DNA of 64,000 nt from the IMG/VR virus record IMGVR_UViG_3300050821_009835, positions 62,001-126,000 of that record, one strand, 5' to 3'. Shown here in pieces: positions 3,578-20,334 of this stretch (its first letter is position 1; each line of letters opens with the position of its first letter). A program made the position numbers and the translations under genes. The stretch is from a virus. Under the pieces are notes generated by a model. That model made no database searches, had not been told where the DNA came from, and saw only the letters and a program-made list of their open reading frames with translations.

Positions 3578-3621
3578 GGGTTTTTATTCCTTAAAATACT
3601 ACGACAACGGTATTGTTTCTT

Positions 3622-4092
3622 ATGAGGAAACTACTAGCGGTCGCAGTGTTTACTATCGTGTTTCTTTTAGGAACCATCGTCTCCGCTCAGGAAGTGGACG
3701 TAGGTAATCTTCACAAGCTTGCCTTAGCAATTTCTAAAGCAGAAGGGTTCGGGGTAAAAAACACAATCCCTACCCGCTATCACAATCCTGGTGATATTCG
3801 TACATGCCGTCCAGGTCTTCACTATCCTGGTCAAGTGGGGATCAGCCACCACTGCTATGTTATTTTTTGTAGCGACGCTGCTGGATTTTCTGCTTTGGAA
3901 TCCAACCTGCGTAAGATTGCAACTGGTAAATCTGTTTACTATGCACCAGACATAACCATCAATAAGATGGCGCGACTGTATGCCACTAATTGGCACACCT
4001 GGGCTAAAAACGTGGCCAAGAATCTCGACGTTCCTACCGATACTCGATTAGCGGATTTGTTACTAGTTTTCCCAGTGGATCTCGAAAAATAA
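3622..4092 (+). CDS. Exported lysozyme/transglycosylase-like protein
   Basis: The first 21 residues form a signal peptide: MRK, a long hydrophobic core, then VSA before Q-E. The mature part has the pattern ISKAEGFG, YHNPGDIRTC, then AGFSALESNL, which resembles phage muralytic or virion-associated proteins where an Asn-Pro-Gly-Asp loop follows a catalytic Glu. E in SKAEGF is the likely acid. A role in peptidoglycan cleavage after export is inferred, not shown. I chose the ATG at 3622 over the TTG at 3613 because it opens the signal peptide directly. The four cysteines would favour an oxidising compartment. Confidence 0.6.
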   Translation: MRKLLAVAVFTIVFLLGTIVSAQEVDVGNLHKLALAISKAEGFGVKNTIPTRYHNPGDIRTCRPGLHYPGQVGISHHCYVIFCSDAAGFSALESNLRKIATGKSVYYAPDITINKMARLYATNWHTWAKNVAKNLDVPTDTRLADLLLVFPVDLEK

Positions 4093-4126
4093 TGCCCATT
4101 TTTGCGACATTAGAGTATTGAAACTC

Positions 4127-5143
4127 ATGAGCACAATAACAAAGCCCTTCCGTGTTAGTTACTATAACCCATCCCATGTTGTTGACGGGCGAGCACTTCT
4201 TCTGTCCACTGTTGTGGACGCTACCAATGGCGATGAAGCCAAGAAGATTGTAGAAAGCGGCAATACTGCCAAAGCGGTTAAAGCATACCCGTTCTATCGG
4301 ACCTTGAAGCAACCAACACGTAAAACATGGTATATTGTGTCCGGCCCGGACTCACAAGCAACCAAAGATGTCCTTAAGGATCTTACGGGTCAAATAAGCC
4401 ATGACAAACACGACCAATTGATGGATACCTTCACACCCAAGGAAACCACTGCCAGTTCACTTCAGCCTTTAAAGAGCGGCGTGAGATTTCCAGCTTCGTC
4501 TGTGAAGACCAGTGTCTCCCAAGCCAGTAGTCAGATTCCTGGCACTTACCGTTGGCATGGGTCAAAATATCTTGTCGATGGGCGTTGTACAAAACTGGAT
4601 CCTGACGGGCCACAATTGACTATTCAAGAACCCCAGGCTGTTGCTCAGGCTGATGGATATGCAGATCCAGGTTGCACAGTCCAGCCTTCGGTCAAACCTC
4701 CGATTCCTCTCTTTATTATTCAACAGTCGACGTTTCCGGAAACAGTAAACTTCGCAATCGATACGGCCCTTCGCTTAAATCGATCGGTGACGTTCCATTT
4801 TGAAAATCGTGAATTGATCGCATTTCCGGACGGAACTTACATAACTGTTGGGGATACTAGGTCGTATACTGTCACTCCAGAAGTGCCCTCAGAAAAAGCC
4901 TCTAACGAGCTTCAATCAGAAGAAAAGTGTAAGGATGAGGATTGTTGTCTTTGTTATCCTGAAAATGCAGAGAAAGCTAAAACTATTGAGCAGCCCACTG
5001 TTGATGAATCAGTTCCTTTGAAAAGTTTGTTCTCCACAGAGCCCCCGAAGGCGATTGGTTTTTGGTCGACTTGGGGATTAGCAATCGGCTTCGTTGGAAC
5101 TGTCTTCCTCATCCGATATCTGGTTCATCTACTTTCTCACTAG
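4127..5143 (+). CDS. Hypothetical protein with C-terminal membrane anchor
   Basis: This 338-aa protein starts MSTITKPFRV; the TTG at 4118 adds only three residues. The body is soluble and Ser/Thr/Pro-rich, with a Cys cluster near residue 270 (KCKDEDCCLCYPE) that could bind metal or form disulphides. The last 25 residues (WGLAIGFVGTVFLIRYLVHLL) form a single transmembrane helix with a short tail, so the protein is probably tail-anchored or C-terminally anchored. I do not recognise the family. It follows the exported lysozyme-like gene, so an envelope role is possible. Confidence 0.6.
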   Translation: MSTITKPFRVSYYNPSHVVDGRALLLSTVVDATNGDEAKKIVESGNTAKAVKAYPFYRTLKQPTRKTWYIVSGPDSQATKDVLKDLTGQISHDKHDQLMDTFTPKETTASSLQPLKSGVRFPASSVKTSVSQASSQIPGTYRWHGSKYLVDGRCTKLDPDGPQLTIQEPQAVAQADGYADPGCTVQPSVKPPIPLFIIQQSTFPETVNFAIDTALRLNRSVTFHFENRELIAFPDGTYITVGDTRSYTVTPEVPSEKASNELQSEEKCKDEDCCLCYPENAEKAKTIEQPTVDESVPLKSLFSTEPPKAIGFWSTWGLAIGFVGTVFLIRYLVHLLSH

Positions 5144-5228: not shown

Positions 5229-5726
5229 GTGGATAATCTTGTCAAATTCAAGCTCTTACACCCCAGTGCAACACTCCCTAAACGTGGTACAGATGGCTCC
5301 GGCGGGTTCGACTTCTTTGTCCCTGAAGATGGCGAATTAGCGCCCGGTGAAAAGAAACTTATATCCTCCGGGGTTGCTCACGATCTCCCACCTTCGATAT
5401 ATCTTCAGAGTTTGATTCCCGATGAATTCGGCAATTCCAGAAAAACTCATATTGAGGTTCGTATACAAGGTATTCTATTCGATCGCTCAGGGCTAGGATC
5501 AAAGAAGGGCATCCGACTTTCCTTCACAGGCCTAATCGACAACGACTATCGTGGAGAGATCAAGTTAAGTATGGAGAATGTCGGTAAAGAGCCCTTCTCT
5601 TGGAAATCCGGGGAGCGGCTTTGCCAAATTGGCTATGCGCTATTATACGCTGGTGATGCTGTGCATACTGACGCACTTGTAGAAACAGCACGTGGTGCAG
5701 GCGGATTCGGTAGTACAGGGAGATGA
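5229..5726 (+). CDS. dut: dUTP pyrophosphatase
   Basis: This 165-aa protein has all five trimeric dUTPase motifs: I (GSGGFDFF), II (DRSGLGSKKG), III (TGLIDNDYRGEIK), IV (GERLCQIGY) and the glycine-rich V (ARGAGGFGSTGR) at the C terminus. The enzyme hydrolyses dUTP to dUMP and PPi, keeping uracil out of phage DNA and feeding dUMP to pyrimidine synthesis. A roughly 20-residue insertion (PDEFGNSRKTHIEV) between the first strands and motif II is longer than in most bacterial enzymes. The GTG start at 5229 is set by the GGAGGGAAC site. The motif III aspartate and the motif V arginine are present, so it should be active. Confidence 0.93.
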   Translation: MDNLVKFKLLHPSATLPKRGTDGSGGFDFFVPEDGELAPGEKKLISSGVAHDLPPSIYLQSLIPDEFGNSRKTHIEVRIQGILFDRSGLGSKKGIRLSFTGLIDNDYRGEIKLSMENVGKEPFSWKSGERLCQIGYALLYAGDAVHTDALVETARGAGGFGSTGR

Positions 5727-5730
5727 CAAA

Positions 5731-6006
5731 ATGACGAGGTTACAAACTTTCATCCGTTGGTTGGATGGGTCATCCCCCAACAAAGATTTAGCACCAGAAA
5801 TAAATAAATCGCAGCGAGTTGCGAAAATCCAACTCACAAAATCACACCTCGAGATGCTTGTGAAAAAGAAGACTATTACTCTCAATTTACCCGACGTTCA
5901 GATCCAACTGACCCTATCTAAAGATAAGTCCCCCTCGTTTGATGATTTCAACCTGGATGATTTTAGTGATCTCAAATACATGTTCAGAGATTTCTTTAAG
6001 CGATGA
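5731..6006 (+). CDS. Hypothetical acidic protein, 91 aa
   Basis: It starts MTRLQTFIRW four bases after the dUTPase stop, with GGGAGA seven bases upstream; the longer frame from 5692 lies inside dut. The N-terminal half is amphipathic helix and the C terminus is very acidic and aromatic (FDDFNLDDFSDLKYMFRDFF). No family is recognised. Acidic aromatic tails of this kind are often protein interaction segments, for instance in DNA mimics or SSB-type proteins, but nothing here proves that. Confidence 0.65.
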   Translation: MTRLQTFIRWLDGSSPNKDLAPEINKSQRVAKIQLTKSHLEMLVKKKTITLNLPDVQIQLTLSKDKSPSFDDFNLDDFSDLKYMFRDFFKR

Positions 6007-6038
6007 ACTTCCAAATCCCTTTATAGCGAGGGACTTGC

Positions 6039-6629
6039 ATGCAATTCGTAGACATTCGTCCAGATGATCTGCTAAAATTACGGGATGGTTTGGATATTCT
6101 GGATAGAATCAGAGAAGATCCAGATGAACAGCGCAACATATTTTTATACGGCATTAGCACCGACACAGTGCTGTTAGATGCCGCTCGTGAAGCTGTTGCA
6201 AATGATGCTGATGATCCAGCAATTATGGAGGACAATATCACGTTAGGCGAAATTGCTGTGGCTATCCCTCTATCTGGAGATGTGATTTATGCTTTAACAG
6301 GTTCGGGAATGAAACTGGATCGAAGAGGTGAATTTGCTTATCGTAGTGGAGAAGGTGAAGGCGTCCGAACTCTATCTTTTCAATGGTCGAATGTTAAGCC
6401 TGTGGTGACTCTAAAAGACTTTAGTCAGACGGCTTTGGCAAATGACAGTGTTTGGCTTGATCGTTATCTAGCTCAACGAGGGACAAATGCTACTGTCGCA
6501 GTACAGAAAGAAGTTCAAAGAGCCACCCCGGCAACACCACCGCCCGGTGCAGTTGCACCAGCTGTAGCCCCACAGAAGAAACAAACATCTTTGCACATCA
6601 AGAGTATCGTGGAGGATTGGTTAGGGTGA
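6039..6629 (+). CDS. Hypothetical protein, 196 aa
   Basis: The ATG at 6039 is preceded by GCGAGGGA. The protein has an acidic first half, then a Pro/Ala-rich linker (PATPPPGAVAPAVAP) around residue 165, and a short C-terminal helix ending SIVEDWLG. That architecture, a domain plus flexible linker plus short terminal motif, is common in phage adaptor proteins. The family is not recognised. Its TGA overlaps the next GTG (GTGA). Confidence 0.65.
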   Translation: MQFVDIRPDDLLKLRDGLDILDRIREDPDEQRNIFLYGISTDTVLLDAAREAVANDADDPAIMEDNITLGEIAVAIPLSGDVIYALTGSGMKLDRRGEFAYRSGEGEGVRTLSFQWSNVKPVVTLKDFSQTALANDSVWLDRYLAQRGTNATVAVQKEVQRATPATPPPGAVAPAVAPQKKQTSLHIKSIVEDWLG

Positions 6630-6970
6630 ATAGCACAACCAAACCTCTCGGGCAACGAATTGCTCCTCCGTTGGATGCACCTCCATGTATTTCTACTAAA
6701 CCAGGTTACATGAAAGTCCGACTCTTCTTTCTAACCTCGGAGCCCAAACATATACGAAGTCAGATGCTTAAAAGCGGTTGTGGTGCCAAACCGCCTTTTA
6801 TTGAAGATGTTTGTATTTTGATGCAACGCATGAAAGTATTTCCAAATCTTGAATATTACAGCAATCCGCTATTCCGGCTTCAACTAGCCGGGGTTGTTTC
6901 CTCCACTGCTAAACTCACGGGGTATACCATCCTCGATGGGGATGATGATACCCTTTCCTATGTTGTCTAG
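6626..6970 (+). CDS. Hypothetical protein, 114 aa
   Basis: I place the start at the GTG at 6626, which overlaps the upstream TGA, giving MNSTTKPLGQ; a TTG at 6617 is the only longer choice. The protein has a mixed alpha/beta appearance with no motif I can name. The 160 bases after it (6971-7132) contain no convincing gene; they are AT-rich and may hold a promoter for the next gene. Confidence 0.55.
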   Translation: MNSTTKPLGQRIAPPLDAPPCISTKPGYMKVRLFFLTSEPKHIRSQMLKSGCGAKPPFIEDVCILMQRMKVFPNLEYYSNPLFRLQLAGVVSSTAKLTGYTILDGDDDTLSYVV

Positions 6971-7132
6971 CTGATTTTCCTTAGACCCCGTAGACTCTAG
7001 ACATAAGAGGTTACGGCACCTATTGCTTTGACGCAAAAAGCATGTTGTTCGAGAGAACGACAATGACCTCCAATTTTCTATGAATCAGTCTTGTTTGCAC
7101 AAACTAATTAACAGCGGCATGGGAAGAAATAA

Positions 7133-7567
7133 GTGAACACAAAACAAGCTGTTGACGCCCTCCTCGCTCAAGTCACCAAACGATTCCCGCATGATCGATT
7201 TGTCCCTGGTGTCTTAATTGCTCAGCTCCCTGCACACCGCAATGACAAAAATCGTCGTGTAATGGACGGCACTAACAAGAAATACAAAATCCCAGCGGGG
7301 CGGCCCTGCGTCTATGGCTGTATTAAACGATTTCACGGTGCTGCGGAAGAGATTGTCCTATCCTACAAGGGTCACTCGGTTTATCAAGTAGCAATGGGCT
7401 TGAGCAAGGAATTGAAGACATTGAAGCTCAAGGAAGAAGTGGCCTCCGAAGCCAACAACTGGAATCCGGCTGGAACTAGTGCGACCTATTGTAAATTCTG
7501 TGGACGTGATACAAACTTCTGTAAACAATATCCTTGCTGGTCATCAGGACGCCCTCGGCCTAAATGA
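7133..7567 (+). CDS. Hypothetical protein with C-terminal cysteine knuckle
   Basis: This 144-aa basic protein starts at GTG 7133 behind GGGAAGAA. The C terminus holds CKFCG...CKQYPC, four cysteines spaced like a small zinc site. The middle is rich in Lys and has a GRPCVYGCIKR segment with two more cysteines. A nucleic-acid-binding role is plausible from charge and zinc knuckle, but the family is not recognised. The TGA overlaps the ATG of a 32-residue membrane miniprotein. Confidence 0.65.
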   Translation: MNTKQAVDALLAQVTKRFPHDRFVPGVLIAQLPAHRNDKNRRVMDGTNKKYKIPAGRPCVYGCIKRFHGAAEEIVLSYKGHSVYQVAMGLSKELKTLKLKEEVASEANNWNPAGTSATYCKFCGRDTNFCKQYPCWSSGRPRPK

Positions 7568-7662
7568 CAAACACACAATTTATCGAAGTACTGCTTTGGT
7601 TGTTTGTGATTGGCAATACTACTATGGTTCTTGGGTTTGTACTTCGAGGCTTCGATGTTTAA
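7564..7662 (+). CDS. 32-aa membrane miniprotein
   Basis: The ATG at 7564 overlaps the upstream TGA (ATGA) and the frame runs MTNTQFIEVLLWLFVI... to a TAA at 7660-7662. Residues 6-28 form one hydrophobic helix. The next gene's ATG (7655) lies inside its last codons, so three genes are chained by overlaps. Such chaining, together with the hydrophobic composition, supports a real gene despite its size. Function unknown. Confidence 0.5.
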   Translation: MTNTQFIEVLLWLFVIGNTTMVLGFVLRGFDV

Positions 7663-8068
7663 TCTTATTTTGTTGCTATTCCCTACATTACTGATTGCTA
7701 CGACGGCGATGTTCATTTTTCGAGGCAAAATCACCATTCTCGAATTTATTAAAGAAGCGAACCCAAATTTATCGCCAGATCTGGCCAAAAAAGTCATGGA
7801 ACAGGTTGAAACGTTCCACTCTACTTTTAGTGCTTCACAAACTCAAATGATCGCTAAGAAACAGGCATATGGGCGATTTCTTAAGACTAACACTGATTCG
7901 CGTATCTACAATGCACTTGGTGCAGTCTTAGGAGCATCCTATCCTCGTATCCATTGCGGCATCCCCGATGGGTCAACAGACGATTACCAAATCCTGACGT
8001 CAGATAAAACTGAAACAGATTTTGCTAAGCATAAAGCTGATGTGTTGCAAATTCATCCGCTAAAATAA
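7655..8068 (+). CDS. N-terminally anchored membrane protein
   Basis: This 137-aa protein starts MFNLILLLFP at the ATG overlapping the miniprotein's end. The first 20 residues form a transmembrane helix, followed by helices (EFIKEANPNLSPDLAKKVMEQVETF) and a cytoplasmic or periplasmic domain of unknown type. A TTG at 7610 would lengthen it by 15 residues but overlaps the miniprotein. It lies just upstream of the ABC/OmpA cassette and may belong to it. Confidence 0.6.
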   Translation: MFNLILLLFPTLLIATTAMFIFRGKITILEFIKEANPNLSPDLAKKVMEQVETFHSTFSASQTQMIAKKQAYGRFLKTNTDSRIYNALGAVLGASYPRIHCGIPDGSTDDYQILTSDKTETDFAKHKADVLQIHPLK

Positions 8069-8091
8069 TCACAGTCTTATTGGGAAAACAC

Positions 8092-8098
8092 GTATTAC
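8092..8098 (+). promoter_or_regulatory. GTATTAC element before the envelope cassette
   Basis: The 7-mer lies in the 48-bp gap after the previous gene, 19 bases before the ATG at 8117. The same 7-mer is found in three other intergenic gaps on this strand. It is a candidate phage promoter element only. Confidence 0.3.
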
Positions 8099-8116
8099 AT
8101 ACAAGGAGGAGCTACA

Positions 8117-8704
8117 ATGAAATTATCGGAGCTGGGCAGTAAAATGATTCATGCCGTTTGTGAAGAAACTCCTGACAAAGTGGCGCCAACTCCCTCTTTT
8201 CAACCTTTAGTGGCTACTCTTCAACCTCTGTCTTATCAGTCAACTCCGGTACAACTTGGGACGGGAGTAGAGGCCGATCTTTATGATATGCTCAAAAAGA
8301 ACACCAGTCTTGAGCCATCATCTGCTATTCAGAAAGTCTTAAGCCTACAGTCGTCCCTTGAAAAGATCATCCTTGATCCGACTACTCGACTTAAGGCTGC
8401 TTTTGCTACGGCTGAGGCGCAGGGTATTAAAATGACCGATGTAAGTCACGACCTTGATCGTTTGTCTAGCTTAGTGACAGCAGAGTCAACTAAGTTTCAA
8501 ACAAGCATGCAGCATGAAAAAGAAGGAATTGCCGACGACGAGCAACACGCATCGATGTTAGAACAAGACCTACACAGGCTGCGTTCACAGATTTCAGACA
8601 GAAAGTCAAAATTGGACAGAGCTGAAATTGGATTTTCTTCTGCTTTGTCTCGCCGAACTAACGAAGTAGAACAACTGAAGAGCCAGTTTTCAACAATTCA
8701 ATAG
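8117..8704 (+). CDS. Coiled-coil protein at the head of the envelope cassette
   Basis: The ATG follows a near-perfect AAGGAGGAG site. The 195-aa product has a Pro/Thr-rich linker (residues 20-50), then long helices; the last 80 residues (DDEQHASMLEQDLHRL...) have heptad-like spacing and end in a charged coiled coil. There is no signal peptide or transmembrane segment, so it is probably cytoplasmic. The stop is 12 bases before the next gene, whose product is also a coiled-coil protein, and the two may pair. Family not recognised; such proteins resemble helical partners in tellurite-resistance (TelA) or PspA-like systems only in overall form. Confidence 0.65.
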   Translation: MKLSELGSKMIHAVCEETPDKVAPTPSFQPLVATLQPLSYQSTPVQLGTGVEADLYDMLKKNTSLEPSSAIQKVLSLQSSLEKIILDPTTRLKAAFATAEAQGIKMTDVSHDLDRLSSLVTAESTKFQTSMQHEKEGIADDEQHASMLEQDLHRLRSQISDRKSKLDRAEIGFSSALSRRTNEVEQLKSQFSTIQ

Positions 8705-8716
8705 GAGGAATTAGAG

Positions 8717-9748
8717 ATGGACACATCAACACCCGGTTTAAAGACCTTTTGGCAAAAGCCAGAAGGCAGAGCAGGAGCAGTAGTTTTATTGGCTGCTAGT
8801 GCAGCAGGGATATACGGGTTCGGCCTGGCTCTCCCATTTCTCACTGCCATGCTCGCCGATACCCTCCATATGGCGTACTTGGCCGGGACTTTGTTTGCGA
8901 TCTTTGCGGTCATTTCTAACAACGATTTTCGTTCGGCTGTAAAAAATGGTTTTCAACTTATCATGCGTTGGAGTTTGGGTCGATTGATTGAACTTGATCC
9001 TATCGGTATTGAAAAGAATTACCGAGACGATATGACTCAGGAAAAAGTAAAGTTGGACAAAGGCGTGGAAGGCTGCGCCGGGGCTAAAGAGGGGCTTGAG
9101 CGCAATATTGCCAACAATAACGACGCTATTCAGCATGCCAAGTCTGAAATTTTTCAAACGGATCGCATGATTGCTTCAGAAAGGAACCCGGTTAAACTGA
9201 ACGGTCTGAATCTTAGCAAGCAACGATTTCTTGAAATCATTGCTAGAAAAATGGCCACCAACCAAAACCTGCAGAAGACACTAGACATGACTAACGGTCT
9301 GTATGAACGTTCTCAACGGATGCAGCAGTTGGCTGAATATAACATCGAAAATCTGAATGCCCAGATCGAGAATGACGAGCAAGAGAGAAACGCTATTCTG
9401 GAAGCCTACAAATCTCTCGGTCCTATGCAGAAGTTGATTCGCGGGGAACCCGAAGCACTAAAGACGTTCAATGCTGCCAGAGAATTCGCGGCACGCGACA
9501 ATTCACGGATGCTCGGGGCTATGAAAGATTTCTCAGCCTACTCTGAAAAGTATTTAACGGGTATGGATATCGAGCAAGGTGCCGCTACTGCTGATGCTGA
9601 AAAAATGATTAGTAACATTGAAAAAACAATGCAACTAACCAGTGGGGGTGGTGATACTGTACCCATGGGCATTGTTAGGGCTGACGCTGTTACGGTTCCT
9701 AACTCATCAAAAGCAGTAAGTGGTGATTACCTCGCTTCACTTAAGTAA
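8717..9748 (+). CDS. Membrane protein with two N-terminal helices and long coiled coil
   Basis: The 343-aa protein is preceded by AGGAGG. Residues 20-75 form two hydrophobic helices (AGAVVLLAASAAGIYGF and AYLAGTLFAIFAVI) and the rest is almost entirely alpha-helical and charged, with repeated heptads from about residue 100 to 290. This is the layout of a membrane-anchored scaffold. The helical body recalls PspA/TelA-type proteins but lacks a motif that would assign it. It lies between the coiled-coil gene and the binding protein-OmpA gene, all on one strand with short gaps, so it probably belongs to the same complex. Confidence 0.7.
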   Translation: MDTSTPGLKTFWQKPEGRAGAVVLLAASAAGIYGFGLALPFLTAMLADTLHMAYLAGTLFAIFAVISNNDFRSAVKNGFQLIMRWSLGRLIELDPIGIEKNYRDDMTQEKVKLDKGVEGCAGAKEGLERNIANNNDAIQHAKSEIFQTDRMIASERNPVKLNGLNLSKQRFLEIIARKMATNQNLQKTLDMTNGLYERSQRMQQLAEYNIENLNAQIENDEQERNAILEAYKSLGPMQKLIRGEPEALKTFNAAREFAARDNSRMLGAMKDFSAYSEKYLTGMDIEQGAATADAEKMISNIEKTMQLTSGGGDTVPMGIVRADAVTVPNSSKAVSGDYLASLK

Positions 9749-9791
9749 AATTCAAACAAAAGTAAAAATTCAAATAAAAACGGAGATTAAA

Positions 9792-11624
9792 ATGTCAGAG
9801 ATTCACGTGAAGAAATCAGTAAAACTCTGGGTTGGCGGTTTGATTATCGCAGGATTGTTTTTCGGGATACATTACGGGATTATCCCAGTTCCTGCTATCG
9901 GTATTTTGAAGGCAGTTGTTCCACAGAAGGCGAATTTGCCAGACATTTCCGATGCTAAGATTGCTGATGTAAAACCTGAAGTCTTCCCATCCTCAATCCC
10001 TAACGGGTGCCAAGATCCTATCCGCGCTGAAAACTGGGCGTGGAATGCTAATATGGGTTGGAATTACTCCAATGGTGGAATCGATACCACCAAAGGCAGC
10101 ATTGCCGAAAAATACGGCGTCTGTGAACACATTGGACGGCAAGACGACAATGCTCAGATGCAGAATGATCTTCTTGCCTGTGCTAAGGACCTCAAAGAAC
10201 CACATTCAACCGAATGCTCTAACGGGGTTCAATTCATCACCATTATGGGCGATGGGGCAGGAGCATTTCTTGCAACTTTGAACGCTCAGGCTAAAAAGCT
10301 CTGTGCTGACTGTACGGCTGAAATTGTGGGAACTACGGGCTTCAGCAGAGGCGAAGATAAACTAATGGGGCCGCCCTCATGGAAGAATCCGCATTCAATG
10401 GTCGGCGACGGCTTAATTGCCGGGGTTCTTCGTGACGGTGATTGGAACACGGCTCAAAAGTATATTGGAGACAATGGACTTAAGAACAACCCGGATGAGA
10501 AAACATTTGATCCTGACGCGGTTAACTGGGTTAACGCTGGGGATTACGTCAAAGCAGCTGAGATGTATGTTGCCGGATATTGTGAAGACAGAAAAGTCAT
10601 CAAAAACGGCAAACTTACGGGCGAAACTGTCAATGTTTGTGTGAAAGGCGTAGTTACTTGGACGCCAGCCGATGTAACTGCTGCTGAAAAGGGCGGTGGT
10701 CTTCAAAATATCGTTAGCACCGAACAATACCGTTCACAAATGCCGAGTGCTTTAATCGGTATCAAGAAGTGGAATAAAACTCACTCGGACAAACTCGCTG
10801 CTCTACTCGCTGCTGCGCTTGAAGCAGGCGATCAAATTAGAGCTTATCCGAAGGCGCTCACGATCGCGGCTGATATTTCAGCTAAGATTTATGGGGAGCA
10901 AAATGGAGCTTACTGGGAGAAATATTACACCGGGACCACTGAACAAGTCTGCAGCAAACATTTAGAGGACGGCGCTTGCAGAGCAAGCAAGATGGCAGTA
11001 AAACTTGGTGGTAGCTATGCAGATAACATGCATGACGCCCTAGCTGAGTTTGGTGTCGATCCTGGAATGCCTTCTAACAATAACTTCAAGGCTACATACA
11101 CCATCTTCGCAAAGATTGTGGACCAGCAGTACCACCCTCTATTTGAGAAAACTCCTATCCCAGAATTCAAGGATATAGCAACGGCGGCTTATTTGTTACA
11201 AGCCAAGAGTCTTATGGATGATCCTGGCTCCGCCGCCGTCAAACCTCAATATTCGGCTGACGAGCAACCTACGGAGCAATTCGGTGATGTCAACAAAAAC
11301 ATCGAATTTAACACCGGATCAGCCGTACTTACTCCACAAGGGCTAGCAACTGTGGCTGGTATGAAGGATGATCTCGCCATCACTAAAGGCTATATCACTT
11401 TAGACGGCAATACCGATAACACGGGAAACGCTGATACCAACACAAAGCTATCCCTGGCTAGAGCAGAAGCTGTGAAGCTGGCAATCCAAAAAATGGCTCC
11501 TGGCGATTTCCCTTCGGAGCGATTCAGGGTTAATGGCTATGGGCCATCGAAGCCTGTTGCAGATAATTCAACCAACGAAGGACGGGCCAAGAATCGCAGA
11601 GTAGAAGTAATTCTGGCTAACTAA
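9792..11624 (+). CDS. Membrane-anchored periplasmic binding protein fused to OmpA domain
   Basis: The ATG at 9792 follows GGAGA; the frame from 9720 overlaps the upstream gene. Of 610 residues, 13-31 form an uncleaved signal anchor (LWVGGLIIAGLFFGIHYGI). Residues about 60-430 look like a NitT/TauT-type substrate-binding fold (FITIMGDGAGAF, TTGFSRGEDKLMG). Residues about 500-610 are an OmpA-like peptidoglycan-binding domain with IEFNTGSAVL, the D in LDGNTDNTG, LSLARAEAV and the final GRAKNRRVEV. The protein would sit in the periplasm, tied to the inner membrane and to peptidoglycan, and deliver a ligand to the permease encoded next. Bacterial proteins with this fusion are known; the cargo is unknown. 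Multiple cysteines (C-x-D-C-T) suggest disulphides. Confidence 0.85.
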   Translation: MSEIHVKKSVKLWVGGLIIAGLFFGIHYGIIPVPAIGILKAVVPQKANLPDISDAKIADVKPEVFPSSIPNGCQDPIRAENWAWNANMGWNYSNGGIDTTKGSIAEKYGVCEHIGRQDDNAQMQNDLLACAKDLKEPHSTECSNGVQFITIMGDGAGAFLATLNAQAKKLCADCTAEIVGTTGFSRGEDKLMGPPSWKNPHSMVGDGLIAGVLRDGDWNTAQKYIGDNGLKNNPDEKTFDPDAVNWVNAGDYVKAAEMYVAGYCEDRKVIKNGKLTGETVNVCVKGVVTWTPADVTAAEKGGGLQNIVSTEQYRSQMPSALIGIKKWNKTHSDKLAALLAAALEAGDQIRAYPKALTIAADISAKIYGEQNGAYWEKYYTGTTEQVCSKHLEDGACRASKMAVKLGGSYADNMHDALAEFGVDPGMPSNNNFKATYTIFAKIVDQQYHPLFEKTPIPEFKDIATAAYLLQAKSLMDDPGSAAVKPQYSADEQPTEQFGDVNKNIEFNTGSAVLTPQGLATVAGMKDDLAITKGYITLDGNTDNTGNADTNTKLSLARAEAVKLAIQKMAPGDFPSERFRVNGYGPSKPVADNSTNEGRAKNRRVEVILAN

Positions 11625-11628
11625 GACC

Positions 11629-12414
11629 ATGAATGAAGCTTTAGCAATTCTGTCACCTAACCAAGCAGTTTCGAAGCGGGTGTTAAGAACACTGGTGATT
11701 GGACAAATAGTAATCTTTGTCCTTTACTGGGCGTTCTTAACACCCGCCGTAATACCAAAACCCGCTGAAGTACTCGAGTCATTAAAAGAACTTTGGGGTA
11801 ATGGGCTGGTTATGGAGTTGATAACAAGCCTTTCATTGTATGCCGAAGCATTGTTATGCGCAACTGTTTTTTCAATGCTTCTAGCTTACGCTTCAACCAT
11901 AGCATTCTTTAAGCCTGTAGCCAACTTTTGGGCAAAGCTACGCTTTCTCGGGTTAGTGGGGCTGCCTTTTCTTTTCACTCTCTATGTACAAGGAGCGCAC
12001 AACTTAAAACTAGCACTTCTAACATTCTCAATCTCGGTGTTCATGATCACGTCCATGCTTGATGTGGTGGACCTTATTCCGAAGGAAAAATATGACTTGG
12101 CTAGGACACTGAGAATGAACGAATGGCAGGTGCTTTGGGAAGTAGTAATCCTGGGTAGGATTGATGTCTGCTTTGACGTTATCAGGCAAAACGCAGCCAT
12201 CGGATGGATGATGCTCCCTATGATCGAAGGATTGTTCAGATCTGAGGGTGGTATTGGGGTGCTCCTAGATACCCAAAGTAAATATTTCAAACTATCAGAG
12301 GTAGCCGCTCTTCAAATTGCGATATTAATGCTCGGGCTAGGGCAGGATTACTTGATTGGGGTTATAAAGGGCTGGACTTGTCCTTACGCCAATCTGCTTC
12401 TGGAAAGAAGATAA
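11629..12414 (+). CDS. ABC transporter permease, NitT/TauT type
   Basis: The 261-aa protein has about six hydrophobic helices and the cytoplasmic EAA-type loop of ABC importers (KYDLARTLRMNEWQVLWEVV). In this family the loop docks onto the ATPase. The start ATG lies five bases after the binding protein stop. Nitrate, sulfonate and taurine importers share this fold. The C terminus WTCPYANLLLERR is consistent with the family end. It should work with the ATPase at 13250 and the binding protein at 9792. A complete ABC importer in a phage is unusual. Confidence 0.85.
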   Translation: MNEALAILSPNQAVSKRVLRTLVIGQIVIFVLYWAFLTPAVIPKPAEVLESLKELWGNGLVMELITSLSLYAEALLCATVFSMLLAYASTIAFFKPVANFWAKLRFLGLVGLPFLFTLYVQGAHNLKLALLTFSISVFMITSMLDVVDLIPKEKYDLARTLRMNEWQVLWEVVILGRIDVCFDVIRQNAAIGWMMLPMIEGLFRSEGGIGVLLDTQSKYFKLSEVAALQIAILMLGLGQDYLIGVIKGWTCPYANLLLERR

Positions 12415-12416
12415 CA

Positions 12417-13076
12417 GTGACAGCAAAACTATTGATGATTCTAACTCTCTTTGTTGGCCTTAGCTACGGCCAAGAAGTCATTATGAATCAACCCTCTGCC
12501 GATGTACCAAATCAAGGTGGGGTATTCTTGAGATTTGACTCTTTTTACACGCAGCACCCCGCCTATTTTTCCGGGATATTCAATACGGCGGTGGGATTAG
12601 GTTTTAACGCCGAAACGTCGTTCAACATCGCCGATGCCACTCACGAATCAAGGGTCTTTGTCCCAGGATTTAAATGGCAAGTGTGGAAGAAAAATAACCT
12701 GATAGCTTATGTTGGTGACCAAATCATCGTACCCAACAAAGGTAATGCAGGTAATAATTCGTATGAGGCTGTAGCTTGGTCAACGGGCAATCTAAGATTT
12801 ACGGGTGGTTCGTTTCAGTCTCATAACAGTGTCCAGATGGGCAACAGAGCAGGGGCATTTGCCGGGGTTGAATGGACCACAAGGACATTTAGAAATGGGT
12901 GGACTTTGATGCCAGGCATTGACTGGGCCTCGGGAGCAGGTTCTAACGGGTATTATAGTCCAGGTCTGTCTTTCATGCACAAATCCTTTTTCGTATGTCC
13001 GGGCTACATGATTGGTAACCCTGGAAATAAATTTGGAGCACATCAATCCTTTGTAATGATAGGAGTAACACTATGA
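12417..13076 (+). CDS. Exported outer-membrane-like beta protein
   Basis: I set the start at GTG 12417, giving MTAKLLMILTLFVGLSYGQE, a classic signal peptide cleaved before Q-E; the ATG at 12378 lies inside the permease gene. The mature 200 residues are rich in Gly and aromatics with alternating strands (VFLRFDSFYT, WQVWKKNNLIAYVGD, WTLMPGIDWASG, FVMIGVTL) and finish in a hydrophobic strand, as in small outer membrane barrels. The final residue is Leu rather than the usual aromatic. It may carry cargo across or contact the outer membrane for the ABC system. Not recognised as a named family. Confidence 0.65.
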   Translation: MTAKLLMILTLFVGLSYGQEVIMNQPSADVPNQGGVFLRFDSFYTQHPAYFSGIFNTAVGLGFNAETSFNIADATHESRVFVPGFKWQVWKKNNLIAYVGDQIIVPNKGNAGNNSYEAVAWSTGNLRFTGGSFQSHNSVQMGNRAGAFAGVEWTTRTFRNGWTLMPGIDWASGAGSNGYYSPGLSFMHKSFFVCPGYMIGNPGNKFGAHQSFVMIGVTL

Positions 13077-13249
13077 AAGCAAATCTGTTAATCTGCACTT
13101 GCGGGGATTGTCTACACTGGGAACTTCTCCAGCAATCAATCGTCTGCAAATCCTGTGGCATAGAATTTCCCATCCCGGGACTCGGCAAATTCATTCAGGA
13201 ACACGTTGACAAACACGATGCTTTGGCCTGGAAAGAACACGAGAGATAA
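13073..13249 (+). CDS. 58-aa zinc-ribbon miniprotein
   Basis: The ATG at 13073 overlaps the upstream TGA and the TAA at 13247-13249 abuts the ATPase ATG. The product starts MKANLLICTCGDCLHW and has CTCGDC and CKSCG, two cysteine pairs spaced like a zinc ribbon. Coupling on both sides in an operon makes it credible. It could be a regulator or assembly factor of the transporter; the adjacent ATPase also begins with a cysteine cluster. Confidence 0.6.
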   Translation: MKANLLICTCGDCLHWELLQQSIVCKSCGIEFPIPGLGKFIQEHVDKHDALAWKEHER

Positions 13250-14086
13250 ATGCAGCATTGCCCTTACAATACGGATTGTTCAGGGTGCGTCTCATTTGAA
13301 GACACTCTGCTTGACGTTTCCCATGTTGGCCTTTCCTACGGCGACAAAGTAATTCTTCGCGATGTGGACGTCAAAGTCCAAAAGGTTAAAAGACGTTGCC
13401 ATATTCAAGGGCAGGTTGTAGGTTTCCTTGGCCCGTCGGGTATCGGCAAAACTCAACTTTTCAGAATCATGGCGGGTTTGAACAAACCGACCTCTGGTGC
13501 TGTTTTTGTGAACTCCCATCACGACCCTGTTCACGCCGGAATGGTGGGTGTTGTCTCTCAAAACTACACACTATTCGAGCATCGTACAATTTACGGCAAT
13601 TTGATGCTCGCCGCCGACAAAAAGTACAAGGATGATCATGAGAGGAAAGAAAAAGTAGATAACTATCTCAACATGTTTGAGCTGTACGACAAGAAACTAC
13701 TGTATCCGGCTCACCTCTCAGGAGGTCAACGCCAGCGAATCGCAATTGTCCAACAGCTACTTTCTAGCGACCATTTCATTTTAATGGATGAACCATTTTC
13801 TGGCCTTGATCTCGTAATGCTAGAAAAAGTTTGCAAGTTGATCGTGGATGTTTCGTGCTTAGATGAGCTTAATACTATCATTGTGGTTACCCACGACATC
13901 ACAGCGGCAGCGAGTGTTTCCGATCATTTATGGCTGATGGGTCGTGACGCAGGCTTACCGGGAGCTAGGATTCAAGAAAATTACAACATGGTCGACTTGG
14001 GATTGTGTTGGCAAGAAAATATCACCACACGTCCTGATTTCATCGATTTTGTGCGGACTGTAAAAGAGAGGTTCCGAACGCTATGA
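13250..14086 (+). CDS. ABC transporter ATP-binding protein
   Basis: This 278-aa protein has a complete nucleotide-binding domain: Walker A GPSGIGKT, Q-loop VSQNYTLF, signature LSGGQRQR, Walker B FILMDEP, D-loop SGLD and switch histidine VTHD. The catalytic Glu after Walker B is present, so it should hydrolyse ATP. It is similar in length to NitT/TauT-type ATPases. The N terminus carries an extra cysteine cluster (CPYNTDCSGC) not typical of the family, which may bind metal or pair with the zinc-ribbon protein encoded upstream. It presumably energises the permease at 11629. The TGA overlaps the ATG of a small membrane protein gene. Confidence 0.92.
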   Translation: MQHCPYNTDCSGCVSFEDTLLDVSHVGLSYGDKVILRDVDVKVQKVKRRCHIQGQVVGFLGPSGIGKTQLFRIMAGLNKPTSGAVFVNSHHDPVHAGMVGVVSQNYTLFEHRTIYGNLMLAADKKYKDDHERKEKVDNYLNMFELYDKKLLYPAHLSGGQRQRIAIVQQLLSSDHFILMDEPFSGLDLVMLEKVCKLIVDVSCLDELNTIIVVTHDITAAASVSDHLWLMGRDAGLPGARIQENYNMVDLGLCWQENITTRPDFIDFVRTVKERFRTL

Positions 14087-14229
14087 AAAGAATGATTATT
14101 CTGTCGGTTTTGATCTTAATGGCCCTCTTCGTAATCGTCAATTCATTTTTCGTCGTTAAAACTGGATTGGCTTTGTTTGTCCTGGGTTGTATCGGTGTTG
14201 CAGTATACGTAAGTAGCGGACGAAAGTGA
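14083..14229 (+). CDS. 48-aa membrane miniprotein
   Basis: The ATG overlaps the ATPase stop (ATGA). The product is MKRMIILSVLILMALFV... with two hydrophobic segments (residues 4-19 and 26-43) and a basic tail SSGRK. Phage membrane miniproteins are often transporter accessory subunits or holin-like, but no assignment is possible. It closes the transporter cassette. Confidence 0.55.
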   Translation: MKRMIILSVLILMALFVIVNSFFVVKTGLALFVLGCIGVAVYVSSGRK

Positions 14230-14231
14230 TA

Positions 14232-14584
14232 ATGGACATCACGCTCAAGACCGATATTCCCGGCTTCGTGCTAAATCTTCATACAGAAAATGGCAAAGGT
14301 GTCTTATCCTGGATGAAGGATAGAGAAGCACTGATTCGCATGTTTCTCCAATCCAGAAGCTGTTGAGATTCTAGAAAGAGAATTTCGGGCAGATTTAATA
14401 ACGCAATGACAAGAAAATTTGGGGAACCACCGAAGTCCCAGATCTCACTGAGATTGTCTGTATATTTCATGGTAAGCAAGGTAAAAACGCCTTAACCCTA
14501 TTTGTCCCTGGTGAAATCTGTATACATGGAGCAATGATTCCCTACTGTTGCGATATTATGGCAACTTGTACTTGCAAATCATGA
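14232..14584 (+). pseudogene. Small gene broken by two frameshifts
   Basis: The ATG at 14232 opens MDITLKTDIPGFVLNL... and stops after 44 codons at 14364. Reading continues sensibly in a second frame (FSNPEAVEILEREF...LITQ, to about 14409), then in a third frame (DKKIWGTTEVPDLTE..., 14408-14584). Removing one base at GTTTC near 14342 and one at CAAT near 14406 would restore a single protein of about 116 residues. The restored stop (14582-14584) overlaps the ATG of the next small gene in the ATGA form typical of this region, which supports the reconstruction. Both changes are single extra bases in short homopolymers, so they could be assembly errors or a real decayed gene. Product unrecognised. 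Confidence 0.55.
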
Positions 14585-14685
14585 AAAACGACCTTGATCC
14601 CTTCCATAGAATCTATGGAACATCAGGTGTCCGTCCAATCCCCTTCGAGGAAGAGTCTAAGATTGTGGAATCTTCAAAAAGTTGA
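14581..14685 (+). CDS. 34-aa hypothetical miniprotein
   Basis: It starts MKNDLDPFHRIYG at an ATG overlapping the restored stop of the frameshifted gene and ends at TGA 14683-14685. It is charged with no membrane segment. The overlap with the reconstructed frame is the main support. Confidence 0.35.
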   Translation: MKNDLDPFHRIYGTSGVRPIPFEEESKIVESSKS

Positions 14686-14713
14686 CTCCGCAACCCAAAT
14701 AGAGGGCTGCTAA

Positions 14714-15421
14714 ATGAATTCACGAATCGCCAAGAAATCACCTGAAGAATCCAGATTCACTCAAATGATGACCGCTCAAGGATGGATGCTTACGGGTGGC
14801 AATAATGTGTGGTTGATCTTCAAGAAAAAGGGCGTGCCTGGCGAGATAGTTGTCACTCGTGGAACTAAAGAATGGGCTTATGATCGTTCTGAAGATGTAG
14901 ACGCTGATCCAGCAGCACAGGGTAAAGGTTTTCAATCTCTGCAAAAGGCTCTACCCACAATTCAGAAAGCCAAAGCTATACACGCTGATTTGGAAGATGA
15001 GGAGACCAATCCTCTTCCTGCTCCTTTTAGGCGAGAAGGACCTAACGTGCAACGCATTACGGGGACAGATCACCAAGGACATGCACAGTTGGGCGATGCT
15101 CAAAATGTTTTAAACTTCCTCCAAGCTAATGGCCCAAAACTCCCACAGCAAGTAGCCGAAGCATTCGGATGGTCGTATGAACAAGCCTATGGGATGCTAG
15201 AACACCTGCGTGCTGAGGGTAAGATAGGCATTAAGCAGATGCGCTATTACGTCAAGCAGGCCAGTCGGTTCCGTTTTAAAAGCAAGATCCTTTACCGCAA
15301 AACCAAGCCAGTCAGCATATTCCAGAGTGAGAACAAAACGATAAAAGAGGGCGGTCCGCAAGGCGACGACATCTCTCGCAAATCTGACGGCGATTACCCT
15401 AAAATGCGTCGCTCACGGTAG
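14714..15421 (+). CDS. Hypothetical protein with winged-helix-like domain
   Basis: The ATG follows an AGAGGG site. In the 235-aa product, residues about 130-180 (NVLNFLQANG, then QQVAEAFGWSYEQAYGMLEHLRAEGKI) read as a winged helix, where a short helix-turn-helix is followed by a basic wing (GIKQMRYYVK). The N-terminal 100 residues (QGWMLTGGNNVWLIFKKKG) form a separate small alpha/beta domain. The C-terminal 45 residues are basic and probably disordered. A DNA-binding regulator is the most likely role; targets are unknown. Confidence 0.6.
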   Translation: MNSRIAKKSPEESRFTQMMTAQGWMLTGGNNVWLIFKKKGVPGEIVVTRGTKEWAYDRSEDVDADPAAQGKGFQSLQKALPTIQKAKAIHADLEDEETNPLPAPFRREGPNVQRITGTDHQGHAQLGDAQNVLNFLQANGPKLPQQVAEAFGWSYEQAYGMLEHLRAEGKIGIKQMRYYVKQASRFRFKSKILYRKTKPVSIFQSENKTIKEGGPQGDDISRKSDGDYPKMRRSR

Positions 15422-16362: not shown

Positions 16363-17568
16363 ATGAGCACAATGACTACCCCTGTAGACCAGCGCATTGT
16401 CAACCTGAATCAGCAGCTCATTGAAGCCGCCGACGCTTATTACAAAAAAGCCTCTCCCATTATGTCTGACGTGGCATTCGACGCCAGTGAAAAAGAATTA
16501 AAACAGCTGGTTGCAGCCTACCCTCTGTATGCTTCACTTGCCACCTATCTACAGAAAGTCGGCTCTGACCTGAAGGCCGTTTCTGGTCGCACTCCTCACC
16601 GTATCCCGATGCTGAGCATCGAAAACATGTACACTGAAGAAGATTTCCTCGCTCAGTATGATCGTTTTGGTGGCGTCCCGGTTGTGATTGAACCGAAATT
16701 TGATGGCGTAAGTATTTCCATGACCTACGTGGACGGTGAACTGACCAAGGCGCTGACTCGCGGGGATGGTACCAGTGGCGAGGACATGACCGCGCAGGTT
16801 CGCTGCACCGAAATCCCCACCTCTCTGGGCAAGGTTCTTTCGAGGAGCAACGGCGAGCCCGTGAAGGTCCCCGCGCTGGTTGAAATTCGCGGCGAACTGG
16901 TCATGCACGAAACGACCTTGAAGGCTCTGAACGCCAAGTATGCCGCATCCGGCCAGAAGACCTACGCCAACACGCGCAACCTGACCGCTGGCACGATGAA
17001 GTTGAACCCGGCCAAGTATGCGGACACGATCCGCGAGCGCAAGATCACCATTCGCCCTTGGGACGTTATTGCTGACCAAGTTCCTGACAGCCGCATCGAG
17101 CGTCTCCGCATGATTAAAAATGCGGGGTTCAGCGAACCAGAAGGTATCTTGCTCACCGACCGTAGCCAAGTGATTCCGGCGCTGCGCAAGATGCTGGAAC
17201 TGAATAAAACTGCCGATATCTACCGCGACGGCGTAGTGATGAAGGTCGACAGCGTGAAAACAAGTCGCTCATTAGGACTGGCCTCCAAGTACACAAACTA
17301 TCAGACATGCTTCAAACCGCAAGGTGACAAGGGAGTTACTTATCTACGTGAAGTCGTGTGGCAAGTGGGAAGAACAGGTCGCATTTCTCCAGTGGGAATT
17401 GTAGATCCTATAGTCTTGGCTGGGGCTACTATTACTCGAGTCAATCTCAACAACATTACTTGGATTCGAGCTATGCGGATAAAGCTAGGAAGTCGGATTT
17501 CTTTGCTTCGCAGTGGGTCGGTAATTCCTGTAGTAGAACGAGTCTTGGATGACGATCCCTCAAAATGA
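16363..17568 (+). CDS. ligA: NAD-dependent DNA ligase, N-terminal part (adenylation and OB domains)
   Basis: The 401 residues cover the Ia region, adenylation domain and OB fold of bacterial-type LigA. The nucleophile lysine lies in EPKFDGVS (K112); YANTRNLTAGTMK, YRDGVVMKVDS and QVGRTGRISPVG mark later nucleotidyltransferase motifs and the OB start. It ends IPVVERVLDDDPSK then TGA, exactly where LigA normally goes on into the zinc finger. The rest (zinc finger, HhH, BRCT) is a separate gene at 18568, with an endonuclease gene in reverse between them. The two chains may associate into a working ligase. From about 16680 to 17230 codon third positions are more GC-rich than in the neighbouring genes. 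Confidence 0.9.
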   Translation: MSTMTTPVDQRIVNLNQQLIEAADAYYKKASPIMSDVAFDASEKELKQLVAAYPLYASLATYLQKVGSDLKAVSGRTPHRIPMLSIENMYTEEDFLAQYDRFGGVPVVIEPKFDGVSISMTYVDGELTKALTRGDGTSGEDMTAQVRCTEIPTSLGKVLSRSNGEPVKVPALVEIRGELVMHETTLKALNAKYAASGQKTYANTRNLTAGTMKLNPAKYADTIRERKITIRPWDVIADQVPDSRIERLRMIKNAGFSEPEGILLTDRSQVIPALRKMLELNKTADIYRDGVVMKVDSVKTSRSLGLASKYTNYQTCFKPQGDKGVTYLREVVWQVGRTGRISPVGIVDPIVLAGATITRVNLNNITWIRAMRIKLGSRISLLRSGSVIPVVERVLDDDPSK

Positions 17569-18499
17569 AATTCATTCGATGGCCCAGTTCTTTGCAGCGG
17601 TAATACTTCGCCAAATTCTGGGCTTTTTCTAACTGAAATATGTATTCACTCTTTACCTCAAAAATCCAGTTAAGGCGAGGCACGTAGAAATCTGGATAGT
17701 AACGTCGTTCTGTCCCATCCACATCAGTGTAAAAGATAGGTAACAACGAAGTCATTTCAAAATCAAAATCTTCTTCTCGAAATCCCTGTTGTAACAATTG
17801 CTCCAGAACTCCCGATTCATACCCAGCTAGAACGAGTACCCGACCCGATGGCAACCGAAATTTTTTGTGCTGATTCTTAGCCGCTGTAGACATGACCTTT
17901 CTGGCAATTTCATGGTTTTGCATTGGATGCCTTACTCCATAATTTTCAATAAAAGTCGCCACCGATTTTGCCTGTACAGCCTTTGTTTTCAAAGGATGCC
18001 CGCCAAATCTAGAAAGCCAAGTGGCTTGAGTCTTCGCGAGGATCTCTGGCACCTTTGAGGGGTGGTCCATTCCATACTTCTCTACCATAGATTGGTGAAT
18101 AGCATCTTGAACGATTTTGACAGAAAAGGGATTCTCAAAACCGTATCTTTCCAAACAAGTTTGCTTTCCTCTAGCCCGGATCCTTGGATTCTGGAAACCA
18201 ACGTCGTGAGTCTCTCTCATCGTCTTCTGTTTCTCGGCGTCTTTCATCCAGAGATTTCTATCTTTAAGCAACGCGGGGCAGTTTGCGAGGTTGTCCACGC
18301 AACATAATAATTGATTTTTGAATTGGAATCTTGCGATTCCACCACAACCGTAGGCACAAAAACCGGACCCTACATAGAGTTGTGGCTTACTCTTAGTCCA
18401 TGTTTTTCCTTTCAATTTGTCGATCGGACAATGAGCACGATGGGCATTGTGACTTTGGCTATTCTTGAATTCTCTGCCACATTCTGAACAAACTAGCAT
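17471..18499 (-). CDS. PD-(D/E)XK homing-type endonuclease inserted in the ligase gene
   Basis: This 342-aa protein opens with a C2H2-like finger (CSECGREFKNSQSHNAHRAHC without going further), then a second cysteine site (CAYGCGG..CC..NC). Next come three or four repeats of the form ERYGFENPF, EKYGMDHPS, SRFGGHPL and ENYGVRHP, typical of modular DNA-binding units of homing endonucleases. The C-terminal nuclease has YYPDFYVP followed by IFEVKSEY, the PD...EVK core. Its last 32 codons overlap the 3' end of the ligase part on the opposite strand. The paralogue at 19493 ends at the matching NF(I/V)(L/I)R position, so the extra tail (DRHPRLVL... to the stop) is read-through into ligase antisense. 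It probably spreads by cutting uninterrupted ligase genes. Confidence 0.85.
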   Translation of the reverse strand: MLVCSECGREFKNSQSHNAHRAHCPIDKLKGKTWTKSKPQLYVGSGFCAYGCGGIARFQFKNQLLCCVDNLANCPALLKDRNLWMKDAEKQKTMRETHDVGFQNPRIRARGKQTCLERYGFENPFSVKIVQDAIHQSMVEKYGMDHPSKVPEILAKTQATWLSRFGGHPLKTKAVQAKSVATFIENYGVRHPMQNHEIARKVMSTAAKNQHKKFRLPSGRVLVLAGYESGVLEQLLQQGFREEDFDFEMTSLLPIFYTDVDGTERRYYPDFYVPRLNWIFEVKSEYIFQLEKAQNLAKYYRCKELGHRMNFILRDRHPRLVLLQELPTHCEAKKSDFLALSA

Positions 18500-18555
18500 A
18501 CTAATTCCTTTGTTACAAATGGATTAGAAAGCTACCCGATTTTTGAGCATTAGTG

Positions 18556-18565
18556 GTAGTATTAC
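18556..18565 (+). promoter_or_regulatory. GTAGTATTAC element before ligase C-terminal gene
   Basis: The element ends two bases before the ATG at 18568, with no Shine-Dalgarno site. It resembles elements before other plus-strand genes and would let the detached ligase half be expressed on its own. Confidence 0.35.
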
Positions 18566-18567
18566 GA

Positions 18568-19500: not shown

Positions 19501-20278
19501 TCACAAAATTGAATTTGAATCCGGCCTTCAAACAGGCTTCGCGCTTCCTCAGATTATCTTCTTTCTGAACCATGAACGTCCACATTGATTTAACTTCAAT
19601 GAGCCAATTCTGTTCTGGGATGAAAATGTCTGGATAATACCGCGCCTTCTTACCATTACTTCTAGTGTACCAAATTGCCGGCATCTTTGTCGGATCAGTT
19701 TCTATTGAACAAACGGCTACCCCGCTCTTCAGAAGTTCCTTTAATACTTTACCTTCTGCTCCTTGAAACACAAAAGTTTTGCCCTGCAACTCTACGGTTT
19801 TCTTGCTCAATCGACCTTTCTGGAGAATCCGAAACATCATTGGATTCTGGAAGTGATGAGGGAAGCCGTAGTGTTTCATAAATGTTGCCACCTTCTTGGC
19901 TTGTATATCAGAGTTTTGGCTGGGGTTTTCCACACCATAGTTGGCTTTTAAGGTGGCGCGTATTTTCTTTTGAACTGTCTTTGAAGCAAAGGGATTCTTC
20001 ACTCCATATCTTTCTAAATTAGTGGCGGCAACCCTGTCTTGAAGTTCCTTAGTCTTATAAGGGTGATCAACCCCGTACCTCTCAATATTATGCTTTTTAC
20101 GCTGTGCCTGAACGTCAGGATTTTGATTAGGGTGGGGCACACCAAATCGTTCGGTGCAGGTCTTAATGGTTTTCTTTTGTATACCGGGGCAAGCGTTAGG
20201 AGATGGAGCACAGTAAATAGCCCCATTCTTCATTTGAAACAATCCAGTCCTGCCACAACCTTTACAATTATGCATCAT
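19493..20278 (-). CDS. PD-(D/E)XK homing-type endonuclease, paralogue
   Basis: The 261-aa protein is a paralogue of the one at 17471: a four-cysteine N-terminal finger (CKGCGRTGLF...CAPSPNACPG), at least four YG-type repeats (ERFGVPHPN, ERYGVDHPY, ERYGVKNPF, ANYGVENPS, KHYGFPHHF) and the nuclease core YYPDIFIP with LIEVKSMW. I start it at the ATG pair at 20278/20275 behind GAGGACT; the longer frame to 20371 crosses the plus-strand gene at 20353. It ends within the last codons of the ligase C-terminal gene. It probably cuts near the ligase 3' end in phages that lack it. Confidence 0.85.
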   Translation of the reverse strand: MMHNCKGCGRTGLFQMKNGAIYCAPSPNACPGIQKKTIKTCTERFGVPHPNQNPDVQAQRKKHNIERYGVDHPYKTKELQDRVAATNLERYGVKNPFASKTVQKKIRATLKANYGVENPSQNSDIQAKKVATFMKHYGFPHHFQNPMMFRILQKGRLSKKTVELQGKTFVFQGAEGKVLKELLKSGVAVCSIETDPTKMPAIWYTRSNGKKARYYPDIFIPEQNWLIEVKSMWTFMVQKEDNLRKREACLKAGFKFNFVIR

Positions 20279-20334
20279 AGGAGTCCTCACTAGATATGCA
20301 GAAAGTTGAATTACCTCTTTCGACGGTAAACACC

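Follow-up and report, generated by a model that had tools for sequence, protein, structure and literature searches.

We analysed a 64-kb window of viral DNA, positions 62001-126000 of the 264,912-bp record IMGVR_UViG_3300050821_009835 in the IMG/VR database, which carries at positions 8117-14229 a cassette of eight open reading frames (ORFs), all of them open and all on the + strand. The cassette encodes an ATP-binding cassette (ABC) transporter whose solute-binding protein (SBP) is fused to an OmpA-like domain, two helical proteins (cc1 and cc2) and three accessory products. Judged from sequence comparison, five of its genes constitute a real, widespread and functional module of huge phages, a variant form of an operon that in bacteria is known from prediction alone. 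The genes, several of which encode predicted transmembrane (TM) segments, are laid out as follows:

8117..8704, + strand: cc1, a cytoplasmic helical protein of 195 aa with a short N-terminal segment and a C-terminal coiled coil; core component 1
8717..9748, + strand: cc2, 343 aa, with a TM hairpin and then, on the cytoplasmic side, a helical hairpin resembling PspA/Vipp1 (ESCRT-III); core component 2
9792..11624, + strand: SBP-OmpA, with an N-terminal TM anchor, a TauA/NitT-type SBP domain and, at the C-terminus, an OmpA-like domain of peptidoglycan-binding type; core component 3
11629..12414, + strand: ABC permease of NitT/TauT type; core component 4
12417..13076, + strand: exported protein, 219 aa, with a signal-like N-terminus; accessory, lineage-specific
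13073..13249, + strand: 58-aa miniprotein, Cys-rich and Trm112-like; accessory
13250..14086, + strand: ABC ATPase, its catalytic motifs complete; core component 5
14083..14229, + strand: 48-aa protein with two hydrophobic helices; accessory

The spacing between genes ranges from gaps of at most 43 nt down to overlaps of 4 nt, in agreement with the one-strand arrangement of short gaps and overlaps described in a first-pass annotation of the same DNA. The SBP-OmpA and permease genes are separated by 4 nt, the gene for the 48-aa protein overlaps that of the ATPase by ATGA, and Shine-Dalgarno-like stretches lie upstream of several starts. Two starts were corrected, that of SBP-OmpA to the ATG at 9792, the longer ORF from 9720 being a mechanical call, and that of the exported protein to the GTG at 12417 rather than 12378. 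Two of the two or three miniproteins initially proposed are retained, and a putative third (14226-14366) finds no support. Promoter and terminator scans returned no more than was obtained in shuffled sequence, and an Rfam search gave no match.

Searches of phage records with tblastn revealed relatives in the 462-kb LR756500, the 735-kb LR756501, Lak megaphages and Bacillus phage G. Alignment-based scans of IMG/VR yielded 38 + 5 loci of the window or Lak type and 32 of the phage-G type; alignment queries were required, single-sequence scans having returned nothing or one locus. With iterated hidden Markov models, the order cc1-cc2-SBP/OmpA-permease-ATPase on one strand was recovered in 40/40 complete loci, a set that takes in Lak megaphages, the 462- and 735-kb phages and many IMG/VR contigs and includes a few near-duplicates, the other 12 loci being mostly contig-end fragments or divergent forms (phage G, LR756511, MT835556). 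A permuted cassette is found in Bacillus phage G and in about 27 large-phage contigs. In phage G it corresponds to gp243-gp250, which comprise the same five components in a cultured phage and differ in their order (permease-ATPase-cc1-cc2-SBP/OmpA), in the presence of two SBP-OmpA copies and in the Gram-positive host. Among the 38 window-type contigs, 18 reach 100 kb or more and 10 reach 200 kb or more, and terminase or Gp23 capsid genes confirm the phage identity of many cassette contigs. When the flanking genes of 31 divergent phage loci were compared, each of the five core genes was present in at least 30 and the next commonest family in 10. The cassette is not a chance arrangement, because dozens of divergent phages share the five-gene order, and we define the system as five components because conservation covers only these genes. 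For close phage pairs, Nei-Gojobori estimates of dN/dS fall at about 0.01-0.17 for all five core genes (0.01-0.11 for the permease in relatives), with permease and SBP the most constrained in most pairs; five genes maintained at such values indicate that the cassette works for phages. The search for the same gene order in large phages and bacteria that had been proposed as a check thus located it in both, and a full importer, which the first-pass annotation had considered rare in phages, turns out to be widespread among huge ones.

Several of these loci show features of their own. In L009 (LR756511, a 595-kb phage) the cassette is more elaborate: a single run of genes (5282-13844) encodes two SBP-OmpA proteins, one VWA protein, a pair of helical proteins and a lipoprotein-like SBP besides permease and ATPase, with aldehyde-dehydrogenase-like and DnaJ-like genes (3302-4807 and 14216-15250) beside the transporter cluster. 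L140, L148 and L158 harbor phage-G-type cassettes, and the numbering of their IMG/VR contigs points to isolate genomes, which may be prophages or phage-plasmids from cultured bacteria.

The window encodes a baseplate J protein, a phage helicase and a match to phrog_1745 (2.5e-167), and a match to the virion-protein family phrog_1383 lies just upstream of the cassette. Since phrog_2, PF03237 and PF07068 had no match in this phage's own record, the evidence that it is a phage comes from baseplate J, phrog_1745 and phrog_1383. It could be argued that the segment is an ordinary host operon carried as passenger DNA, or host sequence misassembled into the contig, given that close relatives, 46-48% identical in the SBP domain, exist in Bacteroidota. 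However, the cassette is also present on independent phage contigs that have capsid and/or terminase genes, phage G is a complete isolate genome, the nearest relatives of this cassette are those of phages, in which it is under strong purifying selection, a baseplate J gene is present in the same window and GC content is even across the cassette borders. We regard this explanation as highly improbable, and its misassembly component, a worry raised in the first-pass annotation, is ruled out by the independent phages with the same order, the phage genes on both sides and the uniform composition. Neighbours of the cassette include genes for thymidylate synthase, dUTPase, an HD phosphohydrolase and an NAD+ DNA ligase, and the phage G cassette adjoins ligase, RNA ligase and gyrase genes; these surroundings suggest a role in the infected cell rather than in the virion.

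A scan of GTDB genomes identified 79 bacterial loci, nearly all on Bacteroidota chromosomes, so that the cassette, correctly described at first as phage-borne, also has chromosomal relatives that had been missed. The order cc1-cc2-SBP/OmpA-permease-ATPase is present in 62 of the 79. Within the flanks examined, a linked AAA+ (SpoVK/CbbX-like) gene accompanies 55/79 bacterial loci versus 0/51 phage loci; the AAA genes found at other places in the phage genomes are of generic kinds and uninformative. Distribution of the operon is patchy, with the SBP detected in 7/297 Bacteroidota genomes and cc2 in 12/198 genomes of the class, both counts including the chosen centre genome. In trees of SBP, permease and ATPase, this phage groups with phages L014-L016 and then with other phages; the Bacteroidota loci of the three-gene kind fall nearby, and a second clade of phages is nested inside a five-gene Bacteroidota clade. 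These tree placements therefore indicate at least two exchanges between phages and bacteria, compatible with either direction for the clade of this phage.

A bacterial operon of the form PspA/Snf7-TM - AAA+ - ABC ATPase - permease - PBPB-OmpA was predicted in 2024 (PMC11237479, mSystems), and ESCRT-like remodelling was proposed for it. The phage cassette shares with this operon the SBP-OmpA fusion, the ABC permease and ATPase and a TM-bearing PspA/Snf7-like protein, but it is phage-borne, has no linked AAA+ ATPase, often contains extra genes between core genes, includes a second helical protein (cc1) beside cc2 and adopts a permuted order in phage G relatives. A search of that article for phage and virus terms found no mention of phage copies, and the main text of a study on huge phages (PMC7162821) notes unspecified membrane proteins with no mention of ABC, OmpA or PspA. 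Open-literature searches returned no report of a phage version, which is weak evidence given that subscription papers and preprints fall outside their coverage. The operon itself had thus been predicted already, and what is new relative to the literature found is the spread of this operon type through huge phages.

Domain, motif and structural analyses bear out the earlier description: the phage encodes a complete importer, in which the binding protein is fused to an OmpA domain, together with two helical proteins. Residues 506-602 of SBP-OmpA match Pfam OmpA (E = 6.3e-15), and the phage-G-type SBP matches NMT1 (E = 6e-12). For the AlphaFold2 (AF2) model of SBP-OmpA (predicted local distance difference test, pLDDT, 89.5), Foldseek relates the SBP domain to TauA (6ssy, TM-score 0.75), NrtA and CmpA, and the OmpA-like domain to the peptidoglycan domains of TagL, YfiB and OprF; among BFVD predicted viral protein structures, no full-length match was obtained. 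An N-terminal TM anchor without a lipobox is present in 48/49 phage SBP-OmpA homologues. In the OmpA domain, residues T541, D542, N550, L553, S554, R557 and A558 are invariant in 42 sequences, forming a TD...N..LS..RA motif that includes both peptidoglycan-contact residues (Asp and Arg), and the invariant T541/D542 and R557 align with TagL/YiaD. Because the OmpA domain is of the peptidoglycan-binding type, and because the same five genes occur in phage G, whose host B. megaterium lacks an outer membrane, the span of the system runs from inner membrane to peptidoglycan. This rules out an outer-membrane-spanning reading and narrows the envelope-spanning set initially envisaged, although a single envelope complex is still probable.

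The permease is NtrB/TauC-like, its Flavobacterium homologue matching TauC at 5.6e-15. The ATPase belongs to Pfam ABC_tran (E = 2.3e-24) and has its Walker A, signature, Walker B and H-loop all intact; across phage homologues, Walker A and signature are intact in 45/45 and Walker B in 43/45. By sequence, permease and ATPase keep their catalytic parts, and the SBP class (class II), the permease fold and the ATPase place the system with the NitT/TauT-type importers, solute uptake itself being predicted. E. coli TauABC and cyanobacterial NrtABCD have likewise this SBP fold and this permease and ATPase type; the phage SBP differs from theirs in being membrane-anchored and peptidoglycan-bound instead of free, and in its linked PspA-like proteins. 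Window-type SBP sequences have 39 positions conserved in at least 95% of sequences, nine of them Asp, and profile alignments place the invariant Asp189 and Trp290 on the TauA ligand-contact positions Glu106 and Trp176. Loss of Glu106 abolishes taurine binding by TauA (PMC6906117, from which the TauA numbering is taken), and Thr132 of the TauA anion site is not retained in the phage protein. That the ligand is positively charged is no more than a reasonable guess.

The two helical proteins had been noted as coiled-coil proteins, a description that overlooked the two TM segments of cc2 and its likeness to PspA/Vipp1. The AF2 model of cc2 consists of a TM hairpin followed by a helical hairpin of 60 and 84 residues (95-154 and 158-241; pLDDT >95). 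Its five best PDB fold matches by Foldseek are Vipp1 structures, with marginal E-values (7.6e-3 to 9.5e-3); ESCRT-III CHMP1B/IST1 appear lower among the matches, and identity is 16-17% over the matched fold. Among phage-G-type orthologues, 15/19 match Pfam PspA_IM30 (PF04012; best 7.8e-11), and the window-type and G-type cc2 profiles align with each other (hhalign 94.6%, E = 7e-8). As in PspA/Vipp1 (IM30), the long helical hairpin of cc2 is followed by further helices, whereas the N-terminal TM hairpin, the membership in a transporter cassette and the remote sequence similarity set cc2 apart. We describe cc2 as a membrane-anchored PspA/Vipp1 (ESCRT-III)-like protein, in the sense of a modelled likeness rather than proven membership, and formation of a membrane polymer is predicted only. 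For cc1, which adjoins cc2 in nearly all phage loci and in 62/79 bacterial loci, no TM segment is predicted, and profile comparison detected no PspA likeness, leaving the idea of a second PspA-like protein unsupported. A kinship of the coiled-coil proteins with TelA/XpaC likewise found no support in profile or literature searches.

Many giant phages thus seem to bring their own machine for the host inner membrane. The reading we favor, with a probability of about one half, is that of an active importer between the inner membrane and peptidoglycan, organised by a PspA-like scaffold and feeding or protecting the infected cell. A NitT/TauT-type ATP-driven solute importer would be made in the infected cell, where the N-terminal helix of the SBP may act as an uncleaved anchor that tethers the binding protein above its permease, between the membrane and the cell wall. 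The SBP would capture a small, probably amine-bearing solute, which the ATPase would drive into the cytoplasm, and cc2 and cc1 may assemble beneath the membrane into a scaffold that arranges the transporter and prevents leaks across the loaded membrane. What the phage would gain is a steady supply and an intact membrane over the long course that infection takes in huge phages. Several observations weigh against this proposal. The permease falls short of the Pfam threshold for BPD_transp_1 (0.004) and has its EAA-loop glycine replaced, cc2 of this phage gives no Pfam PspA match of its own, and its best Foldseek E-value is marginal, helical hairpins being able to match by chance. Moreover, some Bacteroidota (Emticicia, Fibrella and Saprospiraceae among them) keep only SBP/OmpA-permease-ATPase, so the scaffold is not always needed.

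The main rival to an importer with a scaffold, possible but clearly less likely, is that the module mainly protects the membrane of the infected cell, against leakage while a long infection lasts (PSP-like) or against injection by competing phages, with the SBP and ABC components sensing an envelope signal and driving or regulating the PspA-like scaffold. The PspA-like cc2, the cell-wall anchoring, the patchy distribution with repeated phage-bacterium exchange and the near-constant retention of cc1/cc2 in phages, compared with their absence from 17/79 bacterial loci, are all consistent with protection, and the study on huge phages suggests that their membrane proteins may influence whether other phages infect the cell (PMC7162821). 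Yet neither cc1 nor cc2 nor the permease is matched by any PADLOC model, and the strong constraint on permease and SBP in most comparisons, together with the conserved pocket, points to transport. PADLOC reported a ZorB match through the OmpA domain only, and assignment to Zorya or another catalogued defence system was rejected, as no defence-specific component was found beyond this shared domain.

The Vipp1/PspA-like fold of cc2 and the presence of an AAA ATPase in bacterial operons and its absence from phage loci also raise the prospect of a membrane remodelling machine, in which an ESCRT-III-like cc1/cc2 polymer reshapes or compartmentalises the host inner membrane and cycles of the ABC ATPase replace those of an AAA ATPase, along the lines proposed for the bacterial operon (PMC11237479). 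Such a machine has no need for a conserved solute-binding pocket, and the similarity is remote; we deem it improbable. A version in which huge phages of several lineages have a dedicated ESCRT-III-like machine, coupled to a cell-wall-anchored ABC transporter, that reshapes or seals the host inner membrane (or excludes rivals) on a solute cue, the ABC ATPase again replacing the AAA ATPase, is possible but rather unlikely. The original suggestion that the cassette imports a nutrient or remodels the envelope is still a fair description, and its further suggestion, that other phages are blocked, is possible but unsupported.

Transport genes in phages usually come singly; the machine described here has five parts, is intact as a whole under strong selection in giant phages whose hosts include both Gram-negative and Gram-positive bacteria, and has been exchanged with Bacteroidota. 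The module provides a candidate host-envelope function for huge phages and brings PspA/ESCRT-III-like proteins into phage biology, and its presence in the cultured Bacillus phage G opens the functions of the phage cassette and of its uncharacterised bacterial counterpart to experiment.

Outside the five conserved genes lie the exported protein and the miniproteins, which the first-pass annotation had counted as parts of the system. The exported protein matches no Pfam family and has no relative in phages or IMG/VR; it was rejected as a core part, the signal-like N-terminus being the only basis for calling it barrel-like. The 58-aa miniprotein scores 21.6 bits against Pfam Trm112p (cut-off 22) and recurs in one other phage locus, L017, and the 48-aa protein has no relatives among the phage loci compared. 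The exported and 48-aa proteins are thus private to this phage, and the 58-aa protein nearly so. Permease and ATPase are separated by an insert longer than 200 bp in 16/45 phage loci versus 1/77 bacterial loci, and the exported protein and zinc miniprotein of this phage make up one such insert. In L006, a relative of the cassette, a homing-endonuclease-like (LAGLIDADG-looking) ORF (9207-9956, - strand) lies between SBP-OmpA and permease.

Elsewhere in the window, the NAD+ DNA ligase is split into two ORFs (16363-17568 and 18553-19500) with an opposite-strand DUF7487 ORF (17471-18499) between them, and a second DUF7487 copy follows at 19493-20371. The ligase of L016 is a single ORF, and the split ligase looks like a mobile insertion, for which Rfam identified no intron family. 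Two very large proteins (45924-51392 and 23484-25619, - strand) have N-termini of the 'YHGT/FHGT' ART-like type, and the former also contains GNAT and 2'-5' RNA ligase/LigT domains and a weak match to Acb1 (anti-CBASS).

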